A stretch of DNA of 43,025 nucleotides from assembly GCA_947467625.1 (NCBI GenBank), contig CANIJN010000012.1:1-43025 (forward strand). Reading direction: 5' to 3'. This DNA is from Opitutia bacterium (GTDB taxonomy: Bacteria; Verrucomicrobiota; Verrucomicrobiia; Opitutales; Opitutaceae). The position numbers and the translations under genes were made by a program. Of this stretch, positions 10,692 to 31,758 are shown one piece after another. The notes under the pieces were generated by a model that saw nothing but the letters and a program-made list of their open reading frames with translations, had not been told where the DNA came from and searched no databases. Within the stretch, counting starts at the first letter, position 1; every line of letters starts with the position of its first letter.

Positions 10692-12257
10692 ATGAAACCT
10701 TTTATTGATTCCTTCCTACGCGTCTGGCGCGAGTTTACCGTCGGCCAGAAAACCTCTATCATCCTCGCCGCTTTTCTGGTGCTGGGTGGTCTCGTCGCCG
10801 TGGGCGTCTGGTCCGGTCAACCTGATTACCAGCTCCTTTATGGCCGGCTCGCCCAGAAGGACGCCGCGGTCATCATCAGCTCCCTGCAGACGCAGAACAT
10901 CAAGTACCGCACCAGCGCGGATGGCAGCTCCGTCTACGTGCCGGCGGAAAACATTCACCGCTTGCGCATGGATCTGGCCAGCAAAGGCCTCCCGAGCGGC
11001 GAAGGCGTGGGCTTTGAAATTTTTGATAAAGGCCAGTTTGGTCTGAGTGATTTTGCGCAGCGCACCAACTACGCTCGCGCCCTCCAAGGTGAATTATCTC
11101 GCACCATCGCGCAGCTCGACGGCGTCGCCGCCGCGCGCGTCATGATCGTGCAACCCGAAAACCGGCTCCTCCTCGTCGGTCAGAGCATCAAACCCACCGC
11201 CTCGGTCTTCGTAGAGCTCCGCGGCAATCGTATCCCCGTCGAGGCCGTTAACGCGATCCGCAACCTCGTCGCCAATTCCGTCCAAGGCCTGGTCGTCGAT
11301 GAAGTGGCGGTCATTGATCAAAAGGGACACGTGCTTTCGGCCGACCTGAAAGACGATCCGACCTTGGGCGCCGCGACTAGCCAGATGCGCTACCGTCAAC
11401 AGGTCGAAGATTACTTTGCGCGCAAAGTGGAATCCTTGCTCACCCCCGTGATCGGACCCGGCAATGCCGTCGTTCGCGTCTCCGCCGATATCGATAGCGA
11501 GACGGCCAATCGCAGCGAAGAGCGTTTTGACCCCGAGGGCCAAGTCGTGCGCACCCAAACCCATATCGAAGAAACCTCCACCTCGGTGGAAAAGAAAAAA
11601 TCCGGCGTCGCCGGCGTGACTAGCAACACTCCGGATGCCGCGGGTAAAGAAGAAGCCCCGCTCGTGGCCAACGACCAGAACACCAAAAACCGGACCACCA
11701 GCTATGAAATCAATCGCGTCCTCACCAACTCGTCCCGTACGCCGGGCACGATCCGCGGACTTTCCGCCTCGGTCTTCGTTGCTCAACGCATGGTCGGCAC
11801 CGGTGCCGACGCCAAGCCGCAACCCCGCACCGCCGACGAACTCCAAGGCTTGCGCAAACTCGTGATCAACGCGATCGGCCTCAAAGCCTTTGCCGGCGCC
11901 AACGCTAATGCTAATGTCGACGATCTCGTGACGATCCAAGAAGCCGCTTTCCAATCGTCTTTCCCTGCCGCCGCCGAAGAAGCGTTCGTGCCGACGAAGG
12001 TGCGCACCTGGATCGAGCTCAGTGCTAAATACGTTCCCGTGCTGATCGCCGTCCTCGCTTTTGGTTTTTTCTTCCGCCTCCTGCGTACCCAACGCCTCGA
12101 GGCTGTGCCGATGGAGGTGATCAATCCACCGCGCGTAGAGGAAGAATCCGAGCTGCCCGCCGTGGTGACCGCGGCCACTTTGAACGAATTGCTCCGCAAA
12201 AAACCTGGCAACATCGGCGCCGCTCTGCGCGATTGGTCCGCAGAGGCGAAGACCTAA
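10692..12257 (+). CDS. fliF: Flagellar MS-ring protein FliF
   Basis: A 521-residue inner-membrane protein forming the MS ring. The first membrane helix spans about residues 20-45 (TSIILAAFLVLGGLVAVGVW), and the YscJ/FliF ring-building domain follows, with DYQLLYGRLAQKDAAVI and GVGFEIFDKGQFGLSDFAQ. A second membrane helix lies near 435-458 (KYVPVLIAVLAFGFFFRLL), leaving a short cytoplasmic tail of about 60 residues for FliG binding. Length is slightly below the enterobacterial form. It is followed by fliG after 12 bases. Confidence 0.97.
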   Translation: MKPFIDSFLRVWREFTVGQKTSIILAAFLVLGGLVAVGVWSGQPDYQLLYGRLAQKDAAVIISSLQTQNIKYRTSADGSSVYVPAENIHRLRMDLASKGLPSGEGVGFEIFDKGQFGLSDFAQRTNYARALQGELSRTIAQLDGVAAARVMIVQPENRLLLVGQSIKPTASVFVELRGNRIPVEAVNAIRNLVANSVQGLVVDEVAVIDQKGHVLSADLKDDPTLGAATSQMRYRQQVEDYFARKVESLLTPVIGPGNAVVRVSADIDSETANRSEERFDPEGQVVRTQTHIEETSTSVEKKKSGVAGVTSNTPDAAGKEEAPLVANDQNTKNRTTSYEINRVLTNSSRTPGTIRGLSASVFVAQRMVGTGADAKPQPRTADELQGLRKLVINAIGLKAFAGANANANVDDLVTIQEAAFQSSFPAAAEEAFVPTKVRTWIELSAKYVPVLIAVLAFGFFFRLLRTQRLEAVPMEVINPPRVEEESELPAVVTAATLNELLRKKPGNIGAALRDWSAEAKT

Positions 12258-12269
12258 ATTTGACCGCCC

Positions 12270-13292
12270 GTGACTTCGACCGAATACAGCAAACTTAGCC
12301 GACCGCAAAAACTCGCCGCCCTGCTCATCGTGGCAGGCCCGGACGCGGCGGCCGATATCCTGCGTACCTTCCCCGATCGCGAGGTGGAGGAAATCTGCCG
12401 CTTAATGGGCGAATTTGAAGTCGTCTCCGTGGAGCTGAAAGATTTTCTCATCCTTGAATTCGAGCCGCTCATCATCAGCGGTTTGAAATCGGTCGAAGGC
12501 GGCTTCGATTTCGCCAAAAAAGCCCTCGATCTCTCGCGCGGCGAATTCAAGACCGGCGCCATGTTGAGCCGGATCGGCGCGAGCGTGAGCCTCGCCTCTG
12601 CCAAAGTGCTGGAAAGTATTTCCGAAATGGAAGGCCGTGATGTGTTTCTACTTTTGAAACGCGAGCAGCCGCAAACGATCGCCTTCGTGCTTTCTTACAT
12701 CGACAAAGTTAAGGCCCGCGACGCCTTCAAATTATTTTCCCCCGAGCTGCAGGCGGATATTTCGCTGCGGATCGGCCTAATTGATAGCACCTCGCTAAAA
12801 TACATCGAAAAGATCGCCAACCAGCTCGGCGCTAACGTTTCGCGGACCGAGGTGCCCGCGTTCCACCGCAGTGGCGGCGCGGAAACGGTGGCCAACATGC
12901 TCAAAGGTGTTTCCAAAGACGCCACCCGCGCCGTCATGGCCCAGATGGAAGGAAAAAATCCCCGACTCGCAACCGCGGTGCGTCGGAAACTGTTCTCGTT
13001 CGAGGATCTCTCCCGTCTGCGCCCAAGCGACCTGCAACGCCTCATGCGCGAAGTGGATTCGTCGCAATTGGCGCTCGCGCTCAAAGGTGCCTCCGAAGGC
13101 CTGCAGGAAAAAATCTTTTCCGCACTCTCGAAACGCGCCGGTCAAGGTTTGCGAGATGATCTCTCGATGCTCAGCAACGTCCGCTCCAAGGAAGTCGCGA
13201 CGGCGCAGGCCTCCGTGATCGATATGCTCCGCAAGCTCGAGGAATCGGGCGACATCATCCTCGACGAAGACGATGCGGAGGGGTCCGCATAA
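12270..13292 (+). CDS. fliG: Flagellar motor switch protein FliG
   Basis: A 340-residue rotor protein that transmits stator torque. The start is GTG. The N-domain (LSRPQKLAALLIVAGPDAAADILR) binds FliF. The middle domain has EQPQ in place of the usual EHPQ motif (LLKREQPQTIAFVLSYI). The C-domain keeps the torque helix region, with MREVDSSQLALALKGAS followed by FSALSKRAGQGLRDDL, where the conserved Arg and Asp residues are present. An acidic tail of about 10 residues ends the protein. It lies between fliF and fliH, the usual order. Confidence 0.97.
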   Translation: MTSTEYSKLSRPQKLAALLIVAGPDAAADILRTFPDREVEEICRLMGEFEVVSVELKDFLILEFEPLIISGLKSVEGGFDFAKKALDLSRGEFKTGAMLSRIGASVSLASAKVLESISEMEGRDVFLLLKREQPQTIAFVLSYIDKVKARDAFKLFSPELQADISLRIGLIDSTSLKYIEKIANQLGANVSRTEVPAFHRSGGAETVANMLKGVSKDATRAVMAQMEGKNPRLATAVRRKLFSFEDLSRLRPSDLQRLMREVDSSQLALALKGASEGLQEKIFSALSKRAGQGLRDDLSMLSNVRSKEVATAQASVIDMLRKLEESGDIILDEDDAEGSA

Positions 13293-24519: not shown

Positions 24520-26643
24520 ATGGCTGCTGTTGTTCCAGTTCCCGCGACGACGTTTTCCCGCCAACTTTTAGGCCGGGCCGATCTTCTCGTCACTGCCGCA
24601 CTGTTTGGTACGATCATGCTGTTAGTTTTGCCGGTGCCGTCGATGGTGATGGATATGTTGCTCTCGCTCAGCATCGCGTCGTCGTTGTTGATCATGCTGG
24701 TGGTGATTTATGTGCGCCAACCGGTAGAATTTTCGGCGTTTCCGACCGTGTTGTTGGGCCTGACGCTTTTCCGCTTGGCGCTGAACATTTGTTCGACGCG
24801 TTTGGTGCTGACGCGGGGTGAAGCTGGCCACATTATCGATGCGTTCGGCAAGATCGTGATTCAGGGTAATTACGTGGTCGGCTTCGTGGTATTCGTGATC
24901 TTGGTTGTGATTAACTTTGTCGTCATCACCAAGGGCGCGGGCCGGATCGCAGAAGTGTCGGCGCGGTTTACCTTGGATGCGTTGCCGGGTAAACAGATGG
25001 CGATCGATGCGGAGCTGAACGCGGGGGCGATCGATGAGTCTACGGCCACGGCTCGGCGGCTTAAAGTGCAACGTGAAGCGGACTTTTATGGCGCGATGGA
25101 CGGTTCGTCGAAGTTTGTGCGCGGTGAAGCGATCGCGGGTATTTTGATCACCTTGGTCAATATTTTGGGTGGCTTCATGATCGGCGTGTTGCAGATGGAT
25201 TTGTCGCTGATGGAGTCGCTGCAAAAATTCACGTTGCTATCGATCGGTGATGGTCTGGTGACGCAAATTCCAGCGCTGGTGATTTCGGTGGCAGCGGGTT
25301 TGCTGGTCTCACGTGCGGCGGATAACGGCGACCTGGGTCAACAAGTCGCCGGGCAATTGGTGCGCTATCCGGTCGCTTTGAAGATGGTCGGCGCGGTGAT
25401 GTTGCTCATGGGCTTCATGCCGGGGTTACCCTTATTCCCGCTCGGGTTGATAGGTGGATTTTTTCTCTATATCGGCTATAAACTTCCAGCGGTCGCGCTT
25501 GAGGCTGAACCGGTCGCCAAGACCGCCGCCGAGAAGGCCAAGGATAAAGAAACCGCGCCGCCGAAGAGTGGCTCGGTGGAGGAAGTGCGTCGATTGATCG
25601 ACGTCGATGTGTTTGCGGTGGAAGTAGGCTTCGGCCTAGTGGGTTTAGCGGATCAGAAGCAAGGTGGCGACTTACCCGCGCGCATCACCGGCGTGCGCAA
25701 AACCTTGGCCCGCGAATTGGGTGTCATCGTGCCGCAGGTGGCAGTACGCGACAATCTAGAGCTTGCGAGTGGCGAGTACCGTTTTCTGTTGCGCGGTCGG
25801 ATCGTGGGGCGTGGTTCGCTCATGATGGGTCGCTGGATGGCGATGAATGTATCGGGCAGTCGCGTGCACTTGCGGGGTGTCGCGTGTCAGGAGCCAGTCT
25901 TCGGTTTGGCTGCGGTGTGGATCGAAGAGGCCGAAAAGAAGAATGCGGAAATCAACGGTTACTCAGTGGTGGATTGCGCTTCGATCATCGTCACGCATCT
26001 CTCCGAAGTTTTGAAGTCGAACGCGCATGTGCTCCTCGGGCGCCAGGATGTGCAGGGTTTGATCGATCATGTGAAGCAATCGCATCCGGCGCTCGTCAGC
26101 GAGTTGCTGCCGGACTTGGTCAATCTCGGTATCATCCAGCGCGTGTTGCAAAATTTGCTCCGCGAAAATGTACCGATTCTCAATCTCCCGTTGATCTTGG
26201 AAGGGATCGCCGATTACTCGGCCTTGACGAAAAATCCCGACGATTTGAGTGAGTTGGTGCGTCGCCGGCTCGGGCCTTATTTTGTACCGTTGTTGGAGTC
26301 GGCTCCGGGCACGGTGCGGGCCTTGACGCTCGATCTGCGCCTCGAAAAAGAGCTGGTCGCGAAAATCCATCGGACGGCGGCGGACTTCGGTCTGGCGCTC
26401 GATCCCGCGTTGAGCGCACATTTACTCCAGGGGATCAATGCCAAGCAGACAGAATTCGCCGCCGGCGGCAGCGCGCCGTGCATCGCGGTGGGCGCCGAGT
26501 TGCGGTTGGCTTTGCGGCGTTTCCTAGAGTCGACGTTCCCGCGACTCACCGTCGTATCATTTCAGGAAATACCGGGGACTTACCAGATCGAGAATGCCGG
26601 TATAATTTCGGCGCCGGTTGAAACGGCCCGGGCGGCAGCTTAA
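24520..26643 (+). CDS. flhA: Flagellar export protein FlhA
   Basis: A 707-residue inner-membrane export component. Eight membrane helices fall within about residues 1-325, with the family signature RFTLDALPGKQMAIDAELNAGAIDE in the cytoplasmic loop. The large C-terminal domain carries the docking platform, for example DHVKQSHPALVSELLPDL and LRENVPILNLPLILEGIADY. Length is normal. It is followed four bases later by flhF. FlhA forms a nonameric ring and uses the proton motive force with FlhB. Confidence 0.97.
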   Translation: MAAVVPVPATTFSRQLLGRADLLVTAALFGTIMLLVLPVPSMVMDMLLSLSIASSLLIMLVVIYVRQPVEFSAFPTVLLGLTLFRLALNICSTRLVLTRGEAGHIIDAFGKIVIQGNYVVGFVVFVILVVINFVVITKGAGRIAEVSARFTLDALPGKQMAIDAELNAGAIDESTATARRLKVQREADFYGAMDGSSKFVRGEAIAGILITLVNILGGFMIGVLQMDLSLMESLQKFTLLSIGDGLVTQIPALVISVAAGLLVSRAADNGDLGQQVAGQLVRYPVALKMVGAVMLLMGFMPGLPLFPLGLIGGFFLYIGYKLPAVALEAEPVAKTAAEKAKDKETAPPKSGSVEEVRRLIDVDVFAVEVGFGLVGLADQKQGGDLPARITGVRKTLARELGVIVPQVAVRDNLELASGEYRFLLRGRIVGRGSLMMGRWMAMNVSGSRVHLRGVACQEPVFGLAAVWIEEAEKKNAEINGYSVVDCASIIVTHLSEVLKSNAHVLLGRQDVQGLIDHVKQSHPALVSELLPDLVNLGIIQRVLQNLLRENVPILNLPLILEGIADYSALTKNPDDLSELVRRRLGPYFVPLLESAPGTVRALTLDLRLEKELVAKIHRTAADFGLALDPALSAHLLQGINAKQTEFAAGGSAPCIAVGAELRLALRRFLESTFPRLTVVSFQEIPGTYQIENAGIISAPVETARAAA

Positions 26644-26647
26644 TCCC

Positions 26648-27676
26648 ATGGCTTCATCTGCTCTTAAATCTCCAGCGCCGGGCACCTACCGGTTCATCGT
26701 GCGCTCCGTAAACGAGGCGCTTTCGGTGCTCAAATCGCAGTTGGGGCCGGAGGCGCGCGTGCTTTCGGTGCGGCCCGTGCGTCAGGGTTTTCTCAAACGT
26801 ATTTTCGGTGGTGCGAAACTGGAAGTCATCGCCGAGCTTGCGGCGCCCGAATCGGTGAGGGAGCCGTTGATAGCGCCTCCGGTGCCAGGGGTGTTGAGTT
26901 CGACGTATGCGGCTGGGTTGGCGGGCGGGAGCCGGCCCGTGGATTTGCGGACTGCGTTGAAGGCGGCGGGATTTTCAGAAGCGCTGCTTTGGCGGGTCGA
27001 AATAGAGCGGCGTTGGTCGATCTCCGACGAGAAACCTTTGGGTGATGCGTTGGCGGAGTTTGTGCGTGAATTACGCCAGTTGGTTGGAGCGTTTCCGGCG
27101 GTGCCGCTCAGCCGGCGGGTAGTTTTTATCAGCAGTTCACAGGCCGATAAATCGTTGGCGCTTGGGCAATGGCTGACGCGGGAGGTGTTTCAGCAGGGCA
27201 CGAAGTGCCGTGTGTGCCACGTGGAATTTAGCCGGCCCAATTCATGTCTCGAGTTGGAAGTATTTTGCGATGCGGTGGGTGTGGGGCTTACGCATTATAC
27301 GCCGGATCTGCGGGTGAGTGATGACGGCGCGCGCGTGTATTGGGATGTGCCTTGCTTCGGCGCGGCTGCGGGCGACGAAACGCCTCAGTTGGCAGATTTG
27401 TTGCGGCAACAAGCGATCGAGACGCGCGTGCTCGTTTTGAATGCCGCTTATGAAATAGAAAGCCTGAGGGCTGGCTTGAAATCGGGGCGTTCGCTCGGGG
27501 CCACCCACGTGGTGCTCACGCACCTGGACGAGACTAAAGATGTGGGTAAACTTTGGGAAATATTGCTCGAGGGAGACATGCGCCCCCTTTTCTTCTCGCA
27601 TGACGGCAACTTGCTTGGCCCCATTGGAGTCGAACCGCTCGATTTCCTCGTCAAAAAAACCCTGGGTAAGAGCTGA
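26648..27676 (+). CDS. flhF: FlhF-like protein with degenerate GTPase motifs
   Basis: A 342-residue SRP-GTPase-family protein. The N-terminus (about 12-62) has the FlhF pattern YRFIVRSVNEALSVLKSQLG, and the C-terminal half aligns along its length with an FlhF NG domain. The nucleotide site is broken: the P-loop GPTGVGKT position reads SSSQADKS (162-169), the DTAGR position reads DVPCF (233-237), while the TKLDE position survives as THLDE (291-295). Family knowledge says FlhF dimerises on GTP to place polar flagella and is switched off by FlhG; this copy probably cannot. The start ATG 26648 is four bases after flhA. No frameshift or stop is seen, so it is a maintained gene and not an obvious pseudogene. 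Confidence 0.87.
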   Translation: MASSALKSPAPGTYRFIVRSVNEALSVLKSQLGPEARVLSVRPVRQGFLKRIFGGAKLEVIAELAAPESVREPLIAPPVPGVLSSTYAAGLAGGSRPVDLRTALKAAGFSEALLWRVEIERRWSISDEKPLGDALAEFVRELRQLVGAFPAVPLSRRVVFISSSQADKSLALGQWLTREVFQQGTKCRVCHVEFSRPNSCLELEVFCDAVGVGLTHYTPDLRVSDDGARVYWDVPCFGAAAGDETPQLADLLRQQAIETRVLVLNAAYEIESLRAGLKSGRSLGATHVVLTHLDETKDVGKLWEILLEGDMRPLFFSHDGNLLGPIGVEPLDFLVKKTLGKS

Positions 27677-27681
27677 TTCGT

Positions 27682-27948
27682 ATGCGCTACATATTTTTGG
27701 TTTTCGGTTTTGTTTTCTTCACGATGGTCTTTGTGGTCGGCCTTTGGGCTGATCGGACTATCGCGTTGGTCGTGCGGGATGCTTGTATCGCCGCCGTCGT
27801 GGGCGGACTCGCGGGTCATTGGTTTTGGAATCACGTTCTGGATGCGATGCGCATCACCGTCGCCGTAAAACGCGCGACGGCCGAAGCCGCCTCCAAGGCA
27901 AAGCGTCAAAAAAAAGGTGAAACTGTGGTCGCCAAAGCAGAGAAATGA
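27682..27948 (+). CDS. Small two-TM membrane protein in the flhG position
   Basis: An 88-residue protein with two hydrophobic helices (about 4-24 and 28-52) and a strongly basic C-terminal tail (KRATAEAASKAKRQKK). I do not recognise a family. It starts five bases after flhF, ending 27 before fliA, the place where flhG (a MinD-like ATPase) usually lies. It is very likely co-transcribed with flhF. The basic tail would face the cytoplasm if both ends are inside. A functional tie to FlhF is a guess from position alone. Confidence 0.75.
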   Translation: MRYIFLVFGFVFFTMVFVVGLWADRTIALVVRDACIAAVVGGLAGHWFWNHVLDAMRITVAVKRATAEAASKAKRQKKGETVVAKAEK

Positions 27949-27975: not shown

Positions 27976-28758
27976 ATGGAACCTCCTCTTTCATCCGATA
28001 CGCCTCCGCCACCGATTTCGCCGATGGCGTACAAAGCGTACCAACAGACGAACGGTGCTTCGATGGCTTTAGTCGAGGAGCACCTGCCGTTGGTGCGCCA
28101 GGTCGTCGGTCGGATCAAGATGAGTCTGCCCCCGCATATCGATGCGGATGATCTCCATTCGATGGGGGTGATGGGTTTGATCGCGGCGGGGCAGCGGTAC
28201 GTCCCGCAAGAGGGCCGGACCTTTGTCGGGTATGCGTACACTAAAATCCGCGGAGCGATTCTGGATGAACTTAGGCGCTTGGATTGGTGTCCCCGTCGGA
28301 CCCGGGCCAAGGCGCGTAAATTAAAGGATGCGATCGCCGAGTTGGAGCAGAAGCACCAACGCGCGGCGACGGCAGAGGAGATCCAGCGTCAATTGCAGCT
28401 AACGCCCGCTGAGTACGAAGAGTGGCTGCAGGAATCGAGCCCGGTCACCTTTATCAACATCGATGCGTCGGCGCATGATGACGGCGACGGTTTGAAGCTA
28501 CACGAGACGATCGCCGACGAAAATCTGGAGCCGGCCTCCGCTGGCTTAGAGCGGGCTGAATTGTGGCGTTTAGTGGCCGACCGGATCGAGTTGTTGCCCG
28601 AGACGCAGCGAAAAGTGCTGGCGTTGTACCATTTTGAAGGGCTTCGGCTCGCTGAAATAGCCGAGGCGATGGATTTAACGGAAGCCCGGATCAGTCAGAT
28701 CCATACCCAGGCGATCCTGGCGCTGCGTAGCTTTATCGAACGTAATCAAAATAAATAG
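27976..28758 (+). CDS. fliA: Flagellar sigma factor FliA (sigma28)
   Basis: A 260-residue sigma factor for late flagellar genes. Region 2 shows HLPLVRQVVGRIKMSLPPHIDADDLHSMGVMGLIAA and GRTFVGYAYTKIRGAILDELR, the FliA pattern. Region 3 lies about 95-160. Region 4 has LPETQRKVLALYHFEGLRLAEIAEAMDLTEARISQIHTQAI, the promoter -35 recognition helix-turn-helix. Length is slightly above E. coli FliA. Flagellin and other expected targets are not in the window; no fitting anti-sigma FlgM gene is seen here. It sits inside the flhB operon, so sigma54 may drive its transcription. Confidence 0.96.
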   Translation: MEPPLSSDTPPPPISPMAYKAYQQTNGASMALVEEHLPLVRQVVGRIKMSLPPHIDADDLHSMGVMGLIAAGQRYVPQEGRTFVGYAYTKIRGAILDELRRLDWCPRRTRAKARKLKDAIAELEQKHQRAATAEEIQRQLQLTPAEYEEWLQESSPVTFINIDASAHDDGDGLKLHETIADENLEPASAGLERAELWRLVADRIELLPETQRKVLALYHFEGLRLAEIAEAMDLTEARISQIHTQAILALRSFIERNQNK

Positions 28759-29666: not shown

Positions 29667-30443
29667 ATGGCTGGAAGCGGCGGAGCTTGGAAGGTTGCCT
29701 TTGCGGACTTTATGACCGCGATGATGGCGTTCTTTTTGTGCATGTGGCTTTTGAACCAGAAGCCTGATTTATTGGAGGGGGTGGCTAAGTATTTTAGGGA
29801 ACCGCCCAAAATCCGGATGTCATTCAACACCGGCGTACTCAAAGACCAGGCCAAAGAGGCGACCGTGCGTGACATAAACGCCAAATCCAGCACGGAAAAC
29901 GCGGCCAAAGCTGCCGCGGCCGAACAAAAAAATCTCAACGCTATCGCGATGGGCTTTTACGGTATGATCAACGTCAAATCGGAGGATCCCAACCGGCCTG
30001 TTGATGTGGTTGTCTCCAACGACGGCGTGTTGATTACGCTCTATGATCGGCCCCGCAAACCGCTCTTCCAAGGTGAAGCTTCTGCCGAACTCTCGCAGTG
30101 GGGGGATTTCGTTTTCCAAAATCTTGCCTGGCTGGTCGATCGCCACGCTTTCCGCGTGTCCATCGAAGGTCACTCCCGCAGTGGTTTAAAAATGTTATCT
30201 CCGGCTTATTCGGCTTGGGAACTCTCGGGCGATCGCGCCAATAATGTCCGACGGCTCATGGCGAATGTCGCCGTCGCCGGCGAACAATTCGAACGTGTGA
30301 CGTCCTTTGGCGACACCCGCCCGGCCAAGGGCGACAAGAACGATCCCGAAAACGACCACCGCGTAGAAATCAAGCTCTCTATCGGTAACCGAAAACTCGG
30401 TGATTCCGCGCCGGAAAAACCGGTCGAAAAAGTAAAACCATGA
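29667..30443 (+). CDS. motB: Flagellar stator protein MotB
   Basis: A 258-residue protein with one membrane helix carrying the proton-binding Asp, D14, in WKVAFADFMTAMMAFFLCMWLL. The periplasmic OmpA-type peptidoglycan-binding domain spans about 110-245, with IEGHSRSG and the NDHRVEIKLSI ending. The cytoplasmic N-terminus before D14 is much shorter than in E. coli MotB; no upstream in-frame start exists between the motA stop and this ATG. The motif ADFMTAMMAFFLxMW is the proton-driven type by family knowledge. Confidence 0.96.
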   Translation: MAGSGGAWKVAFADFMTAMMAFFLCMWLLNQKPDLLEGVAKYFREPPKIRMSFNTGVLKDQAKEATVRDINAKSSTENAAKAAAAEQKNLNAIAMGFYGMINVKSEDPNRPVDVVVSNDGVLITLYDRPRKPLFQGEASAELSQWGDFVFQNLAWLVDRHAFRVSIEGHSRSGLKMLSPAYSAWELSGDRANNVRRLMANVAVAGEQFERVTSFGDTRPAKGDKNDPENDHRVEIKLSIGNRKLGDSAPEKPVEKVKP

Positions 30444-30691
30444 AGTCCTTTTTATCTGGCCGAACGGGCGTTGCCGTTTCGGATTCGCCAAATCCCGTTG
30501 AGGGCGAGGCGCCCTCGGGCCTATCGCTCTTCGCCTCCGCTAGCGCGCTGCCCAGCGCTGCTGCGCCGAAAGCCGGGGCCTCTTCGGTTCAATGCGTCCG
30601 CGAGGGTGACGTGATCAAAAAATTGATCGTGACGTGTGAATGCGGAAAAATCGTGGAGATCGATTGTCAGTACCCGACCGGCGCGCTTTAA
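30440..30691 (+). CDS. Small unknown protein with Cys cluster
   Basis: An 83-residue protein I do not recognise. The first 50 residues are Ala/Ser/Pro-rich and probably disordered. The C-terminal 35 residues hold VQCVREG, then CECGKIVEIDCQY, a pattern of closely spaced Cys that could bind a metal (half zinc ribbon) or form disulfides. No signal peptide is evident, favouring a cytoplasmic metal site. It overlaps motB by ATGA, so it is translationally coupled to the stator genes and likely has a motility-linked role. Confidence 0.7.
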   Translation: MKSFLSGRTGVAVSDSPNPVEGEAPSGLSLFASASALPSAAAPKAGASSVQCVREGDVIKKLIVTCECGKIVEIDCQYPTGAL

Positions 30692-30702
30692 ACGTCGCTG
30701 CT

Positions 30703-31758
30703 ATGATCAGTCTCAAACAGCTCACGCAGCTGGCCGCGACTTCCACCGAAGTGTGGCAGGTGTTTCAAGCGGATGCCGGCCAAGCGGCTCGGACTGACGC
30801 CACCGCAGCCGCCACTGCAGACGCCGATGCCAAGGAGCGGGCCGAAATACAACTGCGGCGCTCGCGTAATTTGCTCTGGGCGCTATCCTCTCGACTCAAA
30901 GGCTTGAGCGACGAGGCGACCGCCAGCCCAGCGATTCGGGCCCGGTTGCTCGTGGACAATGCCCTCAGACTCGAGGGACTCAATCCGCGAATGTTGGCGG
31001 AGCGTGACGATAAAAACCGGCACGCTCAACTCATTCGTGAATATCAATCCACGTTTGATTCTCTTCGGCTGAATCTCGGCGAAGACAGCATGCGGACTTT
31101 GACGGAAACGTTTCATTATCCCGAGCGCATTTACGCTCTCGGTGAATTTGTGAAATTGCGCCGAGAGAAAGCCGGACTGGAATCGCGGGCTATGGGGATC
31201 GAAAAGAAAATCGAAGAAGCCCGGGCAGCATCGGCCGAGGCCGAAAAAGAGAGCGCATGCGTCGAAGCGTTTTTGCGGACGCTCAAGGCGCAGAAAGGCT
31301 CGGCGATCGCTTTGGGAGTAGCGCTGTTGGGGATGGTTTTGATCAATGTTTCCCTGATCATCGCGGTCGTCGTCGGCGTGCTGGGATTAATCCTCTTAGT
31401 CTTGGGGCTCTTGTCGTGGCTGGTCAGCGGCGTGGCCTTTGCGGCGTTTGATGAAGAGCTGAAACGGAAAGTGAGCGCTTTCAAGGAAGAGGGTTTTTTG
31501 GCGGTCAGCCAGCGGTTGCGTATGGCGCAGGAAGCGATGCGCGCCCTAGAAGTGCGCTTCGAGGAAAACCGCAAAGAATTGAGCGCCGTCAACGCCAAGC
31601 TCGGGAAAGCGGTGGAATTGGAACGTACCTGGAAGCCGATGACGGATTTGGAAGTGGATAATGTGACCCAGAAAATGACCGAAAGCTGCAAGCAGTTTTT
31701 CGGTGAAACGGGCGTGCGAGTGATCTTCCAAAACAAAAAAGAGCTCTCGCTATTGTGA
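30703..31758 (+). CDS. Unknown membrane protein with coiled coils
   Basis: A 351-residue protein without a family I can name. An N-terminal helical region (about 1-160) and a coiled coil (about 165-205) are followed by two adjacent membrane helices (about 215-265, GSAIALGVALLGMVLINVSLIIA then VVVGVLGLILLVLGLLSWL). A C-terminal coiled coil (about 270-335) ends in a cytoplasm-like charged tail. I chose ATG 30703; a longer frame from 30640 lies inside the preceding gene. It starts 11 bases after the Cys-cluster gene and ends the motility operon. Role unknown. Confidence 0.75.
   Translation: MISLKQLTQLAATSTEVWQVFQADAGQAARTDATAAATADADAKERAEIQLRRSRNLLWALSSRLKGLSDEATASPAIRARLLVDNALRLEGLNPRMLAERDDKNRHAQLIREYQSTFDSLRLNLGEDSMRTLTETFHYPERIYALGEFVKLRREKAGLESRAMGIEKKIEEARAASAEAEKESACVEAFLRTLKAQKGSAIALGVALLGMVLINVSLIIAVVVGVLGLILLVLGLLSWLVSGVAFAAFDEELKRKVSAFKEEGFLAVSQRLRMAQEAMRALEVRFEENRKELSAVNAKLGKAVELERTWKPMTDLEVDNVTQKMTESCKQFFGETGVRVIFQNKKELSLL

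Follow-up and report, generated by a model that had tools for sequence, protein, structure and literature searches.

FlhF is a helper in the positioning of the bacterial flagellum and is normally switched by GTP. For S. putrefaciens FlhF, an N-terminal segment of 60 residues was reported to be both necessary and sufficient to bind FliG, and FliG bound in this way can engage FliF and not FliM/FliN. In addition, the contact between the NG domain and HubP was unaffected by GTP or GDP, and in E. coli FliG was stable only with FlhF (PMC11236974). Mutants of the GTPase site in P. aeruginosa and V. alginolyticus indicate that localisation can survive the loss of hydrolysis (PMC12713375, PMC6092412), and the need for FlhF GTPase activity was described as varying by species (PMC12826062). 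Because these point mutants behave differently, the functions of FlhF that require GTP appear to differ between species. Furthermore, a family of small membrane proteins, FlgV, was described in the PVC clade, including Verrucomicrobia, near FlhF, FlhG and sigma-28 (PMC11607428). A natural FlhF without a nucleotide pocket does not appear in the accessible part of the review (PMC12826062), and a literature search combining FlhF with Verrucomicrobia, pseudoGTPase and Opitut- flagella, which mostly did not extend to subscription papers, returned no title on such a protein.

Herein, an FlhF-derived gene is described from the window, the whole stretch of 43,025 nucleotides that was analysed. Its product shares with canonical FlhF (B. 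subtilis 2px0; S. putrefaciens 8r9r and 9en1) the homology of the G domain, detected through a profile, the N-terminal FliG-interacting domain (FID) and a gene position beside flhA and a sigma factor. Unlike canonical FlhF, it has neither the P-loop glycines nor DTAGR nor the Lys of TKxDE, it scores 25.5 bits against a family cut-off of 174, and no FlhG was found with it. Sequence comparison supports well that it is a maintained pseudo-GTPase. The features referred to below are as follows.

10692..12257, + strand: fliF, MS ring (YscJ_FliF and its C-terminal domain)
12270..13292, + strand: fliG, presumed partner of the FID (FliG_N, FliG_M, FliG_C)
24520..26643, + strand: flhA (PF00771, E 5.8e-245)
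26648..27676, + strand: FlhF-derived putative pseudo-GTPase, 342 aa (ORF, NCBIfam match, family profile)
26681..26845, + strand: FID, residues 12-66, retained (NCBIfam, 9en1 alignment, sister identity)
26939..27112, + strand: N-domain-like helices, residues 98-155 (low-confidence model; sister identity at background)
27131..27154, + strand: collapsed P-loop SSSQADKS, residues 162-169, with K168 and S169 retained
27344..27355, + strand: G3 remnant DVPC, residues 233-236
27518..27532, + strand: G4 remnant THLDE, residues 291-295, with T, D and E of TKxDE retained
27682..27948, + strand: FlgV-like small protein with two membrane helices, adjoining flhF; Arg of helix 2 replaced by His
27976..28758, + strand: flagellar sigma factor, FliA/WhiG type (TIGR02479 over cut-off)

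The flhF locus and its ancestry

The reading frame at 26648-27676 is open throughout, with no internal stops, and starts 4 bases past flhA. It is followed by the gene for an 88-aa membrane protein with two helices and by those for the FliA/WhiG sigma factor, MotA and MotB, so that its place in a flagellar cluster, 3' of flhA, is that of a canonical flhF. The same cluster codes for rod/hook-type proteins, FliE, FliF, FliG, FliH, the export ATPase, FliL, FliM and FliN, together with the export components FliO, FliP, Bac_export_3 (FliQ), Bac_export_1 (FliR), FlhB and FlhA. Two genes at the cluster end (30440-30691 and 30640-31758) gave no convincing family match; the 372-aa product of the larger one has a coiled-coil look and a hydrophobic stretch.

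Direct searches with the 342-aa protein recovered little of its family. The NCBIfam FlhF model (TIGR03499) matched residues 15-68 only (E 1.2e-5, 25.5 bits; cut-off 174.15), Pfam returned zero matches at E up to 1, the SRP54 model scored 10.8 bits, below its cut-off, and the protein used alone as a query reached B. subtilis FlhF at E 0.043. The match to an Opitutaceae FlhF had an E of 3.2e-69 at 44% identity, and a profile of 15 Opitutales FlhF rows, the window included, reached B. subtilis FlhF (2px0) at E 6.7e-17 with the P-loop, G3 and G4 in register. On these comparisons, the protein is placed among the descendants of FlhF. Across the class, TIGR03499 was over its cut-off in 0 of 286 genomes; at E up to 0.01 it matched 286 of 286, a scan swamped by FtsY and Ffh. 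Relatives sought in viral contigs were not found.

Structure prediction was less informative. From an input of eight close rows only, AlphaFold2 returned a weak model (mean pLDDT 47.4, pTM 0.38), for which Foldseek gave zero matches with E < 0.001; the top matches of this low-confidence model were to the FID of S. putrefaciens FlhF (9en1; probability 1.00, E 0.05). A second aligner superposed the modelled FID on 9en1 over 48 of 48 residues (Z 6.9, rmsd 1.4) and the weak model on 2px0 over 169 residues (Z 6.4, rmsd 4.8), the latter among many SRP GTPases; a Z below 8 may reflect merely a common arrangement, and the absence of a family from this aligner's listing does not exclude it. For this reason the case for the NG fold is based chiefly on sequence homology, which suggests that an NG-type shell has been retained.

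The window genome is 96.1% complete and carries one FlhA. A second, canonical flhF, whose presence the preliminary description had regarded as contrary to its reading, was sought throughout this 96.1% complete genome with the SRP54 model and not found; three matches exceeded the cut-off, one FtsY-like, one Ffh-like and one marginal in a 1351-aa frame. Likewise, generic PF13614 matches revealed no FlhG in the same assembly, those over the cut-off being a ParA/Soj-like protein, an Mrp-like protein and a 768-aa frame on another contig (C73), which by its size alone may be Wzc-like. In 12 relatives searched in the same way, mostly fragmented assemblies, no PF13614 match lay near flhF, and second ParA-like matches in four of them have a ParA-type look by reading of the sequences.

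The history of the cluster as a whole is a separate observation. The window FlhA is 91-97% identical to that of window-type genomes of another genus, whose FtsY is only 76-80% identical to the FtsY of the window's genome, and the latter is 99% identical to that of a genome of the same genus (G001). DNA similarity to the other genus ends at about 31760, and the YebC gene beyond is of the same-genus type (90% identity to G005). From these identities, the flagellar cluster (297-31760) looks horizontally exchanged. G001 carries the same cluster on its contig C8, with no DNA match to the window past 31760 and an FlhF only 92% identical, so that the window genome and G001 may have acquired or relocated it independently of each other.

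State of the nucleotide pocket across Opitutaceae

In the window FlhF, the P-loop reads SSSQADKS in place of GxxxxGK[ST]: both glycines are gone (S162, D167), and the Walker residues K168 and S169 are in place. The G3 motif is DVPC (DVPCF from residue 233) and not DTAGR, and G4 is THLDE and not TKxDE, with T, D and E remaining and Lys replaced by His as in relatives. The residues that remain in the site are thus K168, S169, D233, T291, D294 and E295. The preliminary description of this frame as an FlhF with an altered GTPase site, free of stops and with a persisting THLDE, holds with all its motif letters as given. Its statement that Walker A is lost applies to the two glycines and is too strong for K168 and S169; that DTAGR is lost is correct, and DVPCF is present, yet this is not particular to the window gene, given that DTAGR occurs in 0 of the 94 FlhF rows that span G3. 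The alignment with Opitutaceae FlhFs also revealed what that description had overlooked, namely a family-wide erosion of which the window clade forms the extreme.

Nine further metagenome contigs encode a window-type FlhF at 75-92% identity, seven in full length and two in part. The P-loops of the seven are GSSQADKS, GSSPADKS, SSSQADKS or SNSHADKA, and one of the two partial copies spans the motif as GSSPADKS, so that the P-loop is broken alike in all eight of the nine contigs that cover it. As these contigs encode the same protein, the broken P-loop is not a product of chance or sequencing error. These contigs coincide with nine of the ten window-type genomes and are not to be added to them; the ten genomes, from freshwater Opitutaceae, hold eight full-length copies, which come from two genera and all have an open reading frame. 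Within the eight, the Gly preceding the Walker Lys is Asp throughout, and the DxxG Gly is gone throughout, by a clade-specific step from Gly to Cys (Ser in one). The first P-loop Gly remains in five and is gone in three, and Lys-Ser is kept in seven, with Lys-Ala in one.

For the wider comparison, a family profile search matched 135 of 250 Opitutaceae genomes, from 90 of which, the window included, FlhF was fetched. Nine further loci of the class were taken from the TIGR03499 scan: five (L050-L054) served as outgroup, bringing the set to 95 loci, two (L048, L049) were excluded from the counts, and two (L055, L056) had no match to the FlhF profile. Five of the 95 were fragments below 300 aa (L066, L081, L082, L087, L133) and entered neither the tree nor the state counts. 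Among the remaining 90 rows, 16 carry GxxxxGK[ST] (five of them outgroup), 62 carry GxxxxGR[ST] and 12 carry neither form, the last made up of the eight window-clade members, three rows with Lys replaced by Cys and one with Lys replaced by Thr. Of the 85 full-length FlhFs from Opitutaceae, 62 thus have Arg at the position of the Walker Lys. The usual G3 of the relatives is D-x-P-G, still compatible with DxxG, and DxxG is present in 53 of the 90 rows and absent from 37.

On a tree built by a quick method with the motif columns omitted, at least 7 changes are needed for the three P-loop states and 12 for the two G3 states. By reading of this tree, Lys was replaced by Arg close to the base of a group of 76 rows; two rows inside the group carry Lys, either by reversion or because Arg arose later. 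The exact sister of the window clade is unsure, because the clade joins a long branch (L123). Erosion of the GTP site, as read from these alignments, is family-wide and stepwise, the DxxG Gly having been lost repeatedly, and the window clade is its extreme case. A close comparison is offered by the 62 GxxGxGR proteins, which share with the window FlhF the family, the gene order, DxP at G3, THxDE and the absence of an FlhG adjoining flhF. They differ in that their P-loop keeps its glycines and has Arg in the place of Lys, and in that most of them keep DxxG; identity is about 35-44%.

Three further observations concern individual loci. The two excluded loci (L048, L049) belong to a different family of the class and encode a divergent FlhF with a GxxGxGKT P-loop and different G3 and G4 letters. 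In L120 and L121 (genomes G345 and G428), G3 is without any DxxG (ECGA, EGVA) and the two share a long branch; they form a second lineage in which the G domain is strongly altered. In L133 (G426), FlhF is split across frames (171 and 186 aa, with a further piece in another match), possibly by a frameshift or as a pseudogene.

The divergence of the window clade is also unevenly distributed along the protein. Identity between the clade and 14 sister FlhFs, picked by genus from the tree, was set against a background of the sisters versus other Opitutaceae. Over beta1 and the P-loop it is 31% against 73%, with lower values also for G5 (40 vs 64%), G3 (29 vs 43%) and the C-terminus (21 vs 42%). In contrast, the FID (51 vs 48%), the strand at 259-268 (89 vs 82%) and the strand with G4 at 285-296 (80 vs 77%) are at background. 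Best conserved are these two outer strands, the one at 259-268, close to which lies RVLVLNAAYE, and the one at 285-296 (GATHVVLTHLDE). The change in FlhF is, by these identities, local.

Adaptor or switch

The reading favoured here, to which a probability of roughly 0.55 is assigned, is that of a pseudo-GTPase adaptor which retains its FliG-binding domain and has no need of a GTP cycle; the protein would probably be a fixed adaptor instead of a switch. Support comes from the retained FID, the loss of the P-loop and of the DxxG Gly, purifying selection (below), the cluster context and the lack of a detectable FlhG or second FlhF. In such a scheme, the GTP-held homodimer would no longer be formed, and no hydrolysis cycle would be left for FlhG to trigger. 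The FID would hold FliG and thereby the FliF-FliG nucleus, and the outer strands 259-268 and 285-296 would dock on a putative membrane landmark independently of nucleotide. Release could then be brought about by later assembly, with FliM/FliN competing for FliG, or by the FlgV-like membrane protein encoded next to flhF. An FlhF that has lost its pocket but kept its FID and outer strands intact would fit the adaptor half of the scheme described for S. putrefaciens, and flagellar placement without the FlhF GTP cycle, as the preliminary description proposed, is what we infer from it. Counting against an adaptor of this kind, besides the weak structure model and the residues that remain in the site, the FlhF-FliG complex of P. 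aeruginosa was reported as stable in the presence of a GTP analogue but not of GDP (PMC12713375). The GTPase-site mutants of P. aeruginosa and V. alginolyticus differ from the window FlhF in being point mutants made in the laboratory, which presumably retain GTP binding; in the window FlhF, the pocket itself was changed in nature.

The strongest competitor, though we judge it unlikely, is a divergent FlhF that still binds nucleotide, weakly or with changed specificity, and has lost only hydrolysis or dimerisation. K168-S169, D233 and T291/D294/E295 remain in seven of the eight full-length clade members, the eighth having Lys-Ala, and these residues match the positions at which mutation was most harmful in V. 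alginolyticus. There, changes of T306, T436, D439 and E440 abolished flagellation, those of G299, G304, K437 and G380 were partly or largely tolerated, and those of K305 and D377 partly so (PMC6092412). When the positions given in that report are mapped by motif, the equivalents of T306 (as Ser), T436, D439 and E440 all remain in the window FlhF, as do those of K305 and D377, and the equivalents of G299, G304, K437 and G380 are changed. Because the equivalents critical for flagellation remain, residual nucleotide binding stays a live rival. Set against it are the Asp before the Walker Lys in all eight members, which would put a negative charge at the phosphate site, the loss of the first Gly in three of eight and of the DxxG Gly in all, and the diverged G5 region.

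The retained FID, together with the dependence of FliG stability on FlhF in E. coli (PMC11236974), would suit a protein reduced to a FliG assembly factor, in which the FID stabilises FliG and the placement role is gone. This appears improbable, in that the G-type domain has its strands 259-268 and 285-296 conserved to the same degree as in relatives, and the remainder of the protein therefore still does something.

Gene decay is a poorer explanation still. By the Nei-Gojobori method, over 21 pairs from seven clade members, dN/dS is 0.071 for the window-type flhF, compared with 0.032 for flhA, 0.051 for fliA and 0.112 for the gene of the 88-aa protein, and the former P-loop has a pN/pS of 0.055, the former G3 one of 0.023. 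The window-type flhF is under strong purifying selection and hence maintained, which bears out the earlier description of a maintained pseudo-GTPase. A gene heading for a pseudogene would accord with the lost nucleotide site and with a somewhat fast rate relative to FlhA (path ratio 2.56 over 520 pairs, against a median of 2.17 over 1929 pairs). However, dN/dS is close to that of fliA, the frame is open in all eight copies and the ratio lies inside the 5-95% range of 1.72-2.85, so that decay is largely refuted and very improbable. A strong acceleration of the window FlhF is for the same reason unsupported.

Finally, an artefact of assembly, binning or frame, which the fragmentation of the window genome (362 contigs) and the resemblance of its flagellar cluster to that of another genus might suggest, is refuted for the reading frame by the nine further contigs and otherwise highly improbable, as the same-genus type of the YebC just beyond the cluster on the same contig (90% identity) argues against mis-binning.

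A FlgV-like neighbour and the wider family

The 88-aa protein encoded at 27682-27948, between flhF and the sigma-factor gene, has two membrane helices and gave no match in Pfam or NCBIfam. A small hydrophobic ORF occupies this interval in 86 of 89 loci with flhF and fliA on one strand, and a profile of the protein matches in 92 of 95 loci. Its place is where FlhG often sits. In being small, having two membrane helices and adjoining flhF and a sigma factor, it resembles FlgV (B. burgdorferi BB0268). The size, the helices, the position and an Arg in helix 2 of the family fit the published description of FlgV (PMC11607428), with which the comparison was made.

Of the 91 family rows with a letter at that position, 76 have this Arg. 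Unlike FlgV, the window clade has it replaced in 10 of 10 loci, by His in two, the window among them, and by Gln in eight, compared with a loss in 5 of 81 other loci with a letter there. The joint loss of this Arg and of the pocket lies on a single branch of the tree and therefore proves no link between the two. In the four other rows without the Walker Lys or its Arg replacement, three retain the Arg of helix 2 and one has Lys there.

Beyond the window clade, a broader proposal is put forward tentatively, as one we hold to be somewhat less probable than not: in Opitutaceae, and perhaps in more Verrucomicrobiota, flagella may be sited without the FlhF GTPase/FlhG ATPase switch, by a nucleotide-independent FlhF scaffold together with a FlgV-like membrane protein encoded directly after flhF, the pocket having been eroded stepwise. 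The rest of the family, with Arg for the Walker Lys, would represent an earlier stage of the same erosion. The order would have been Lys to Arg, loss of DxxG and then loss of the P-loop, as the switch fell from use.

Altogether, evolution would here have separated the parts of FlhF, with the FliG-binding domain and the outer strands of the G domain retained and the pocket and FlhG gone. The FlgV-like neighbour may be a concrete candidate for what replaced the switch. Since one family holds a graded series, with the Walker Lys kept, replaced by Arg or set in a collapsed P-loop, the adaptor role of FlhF becomes testable apart from its role as a switch.
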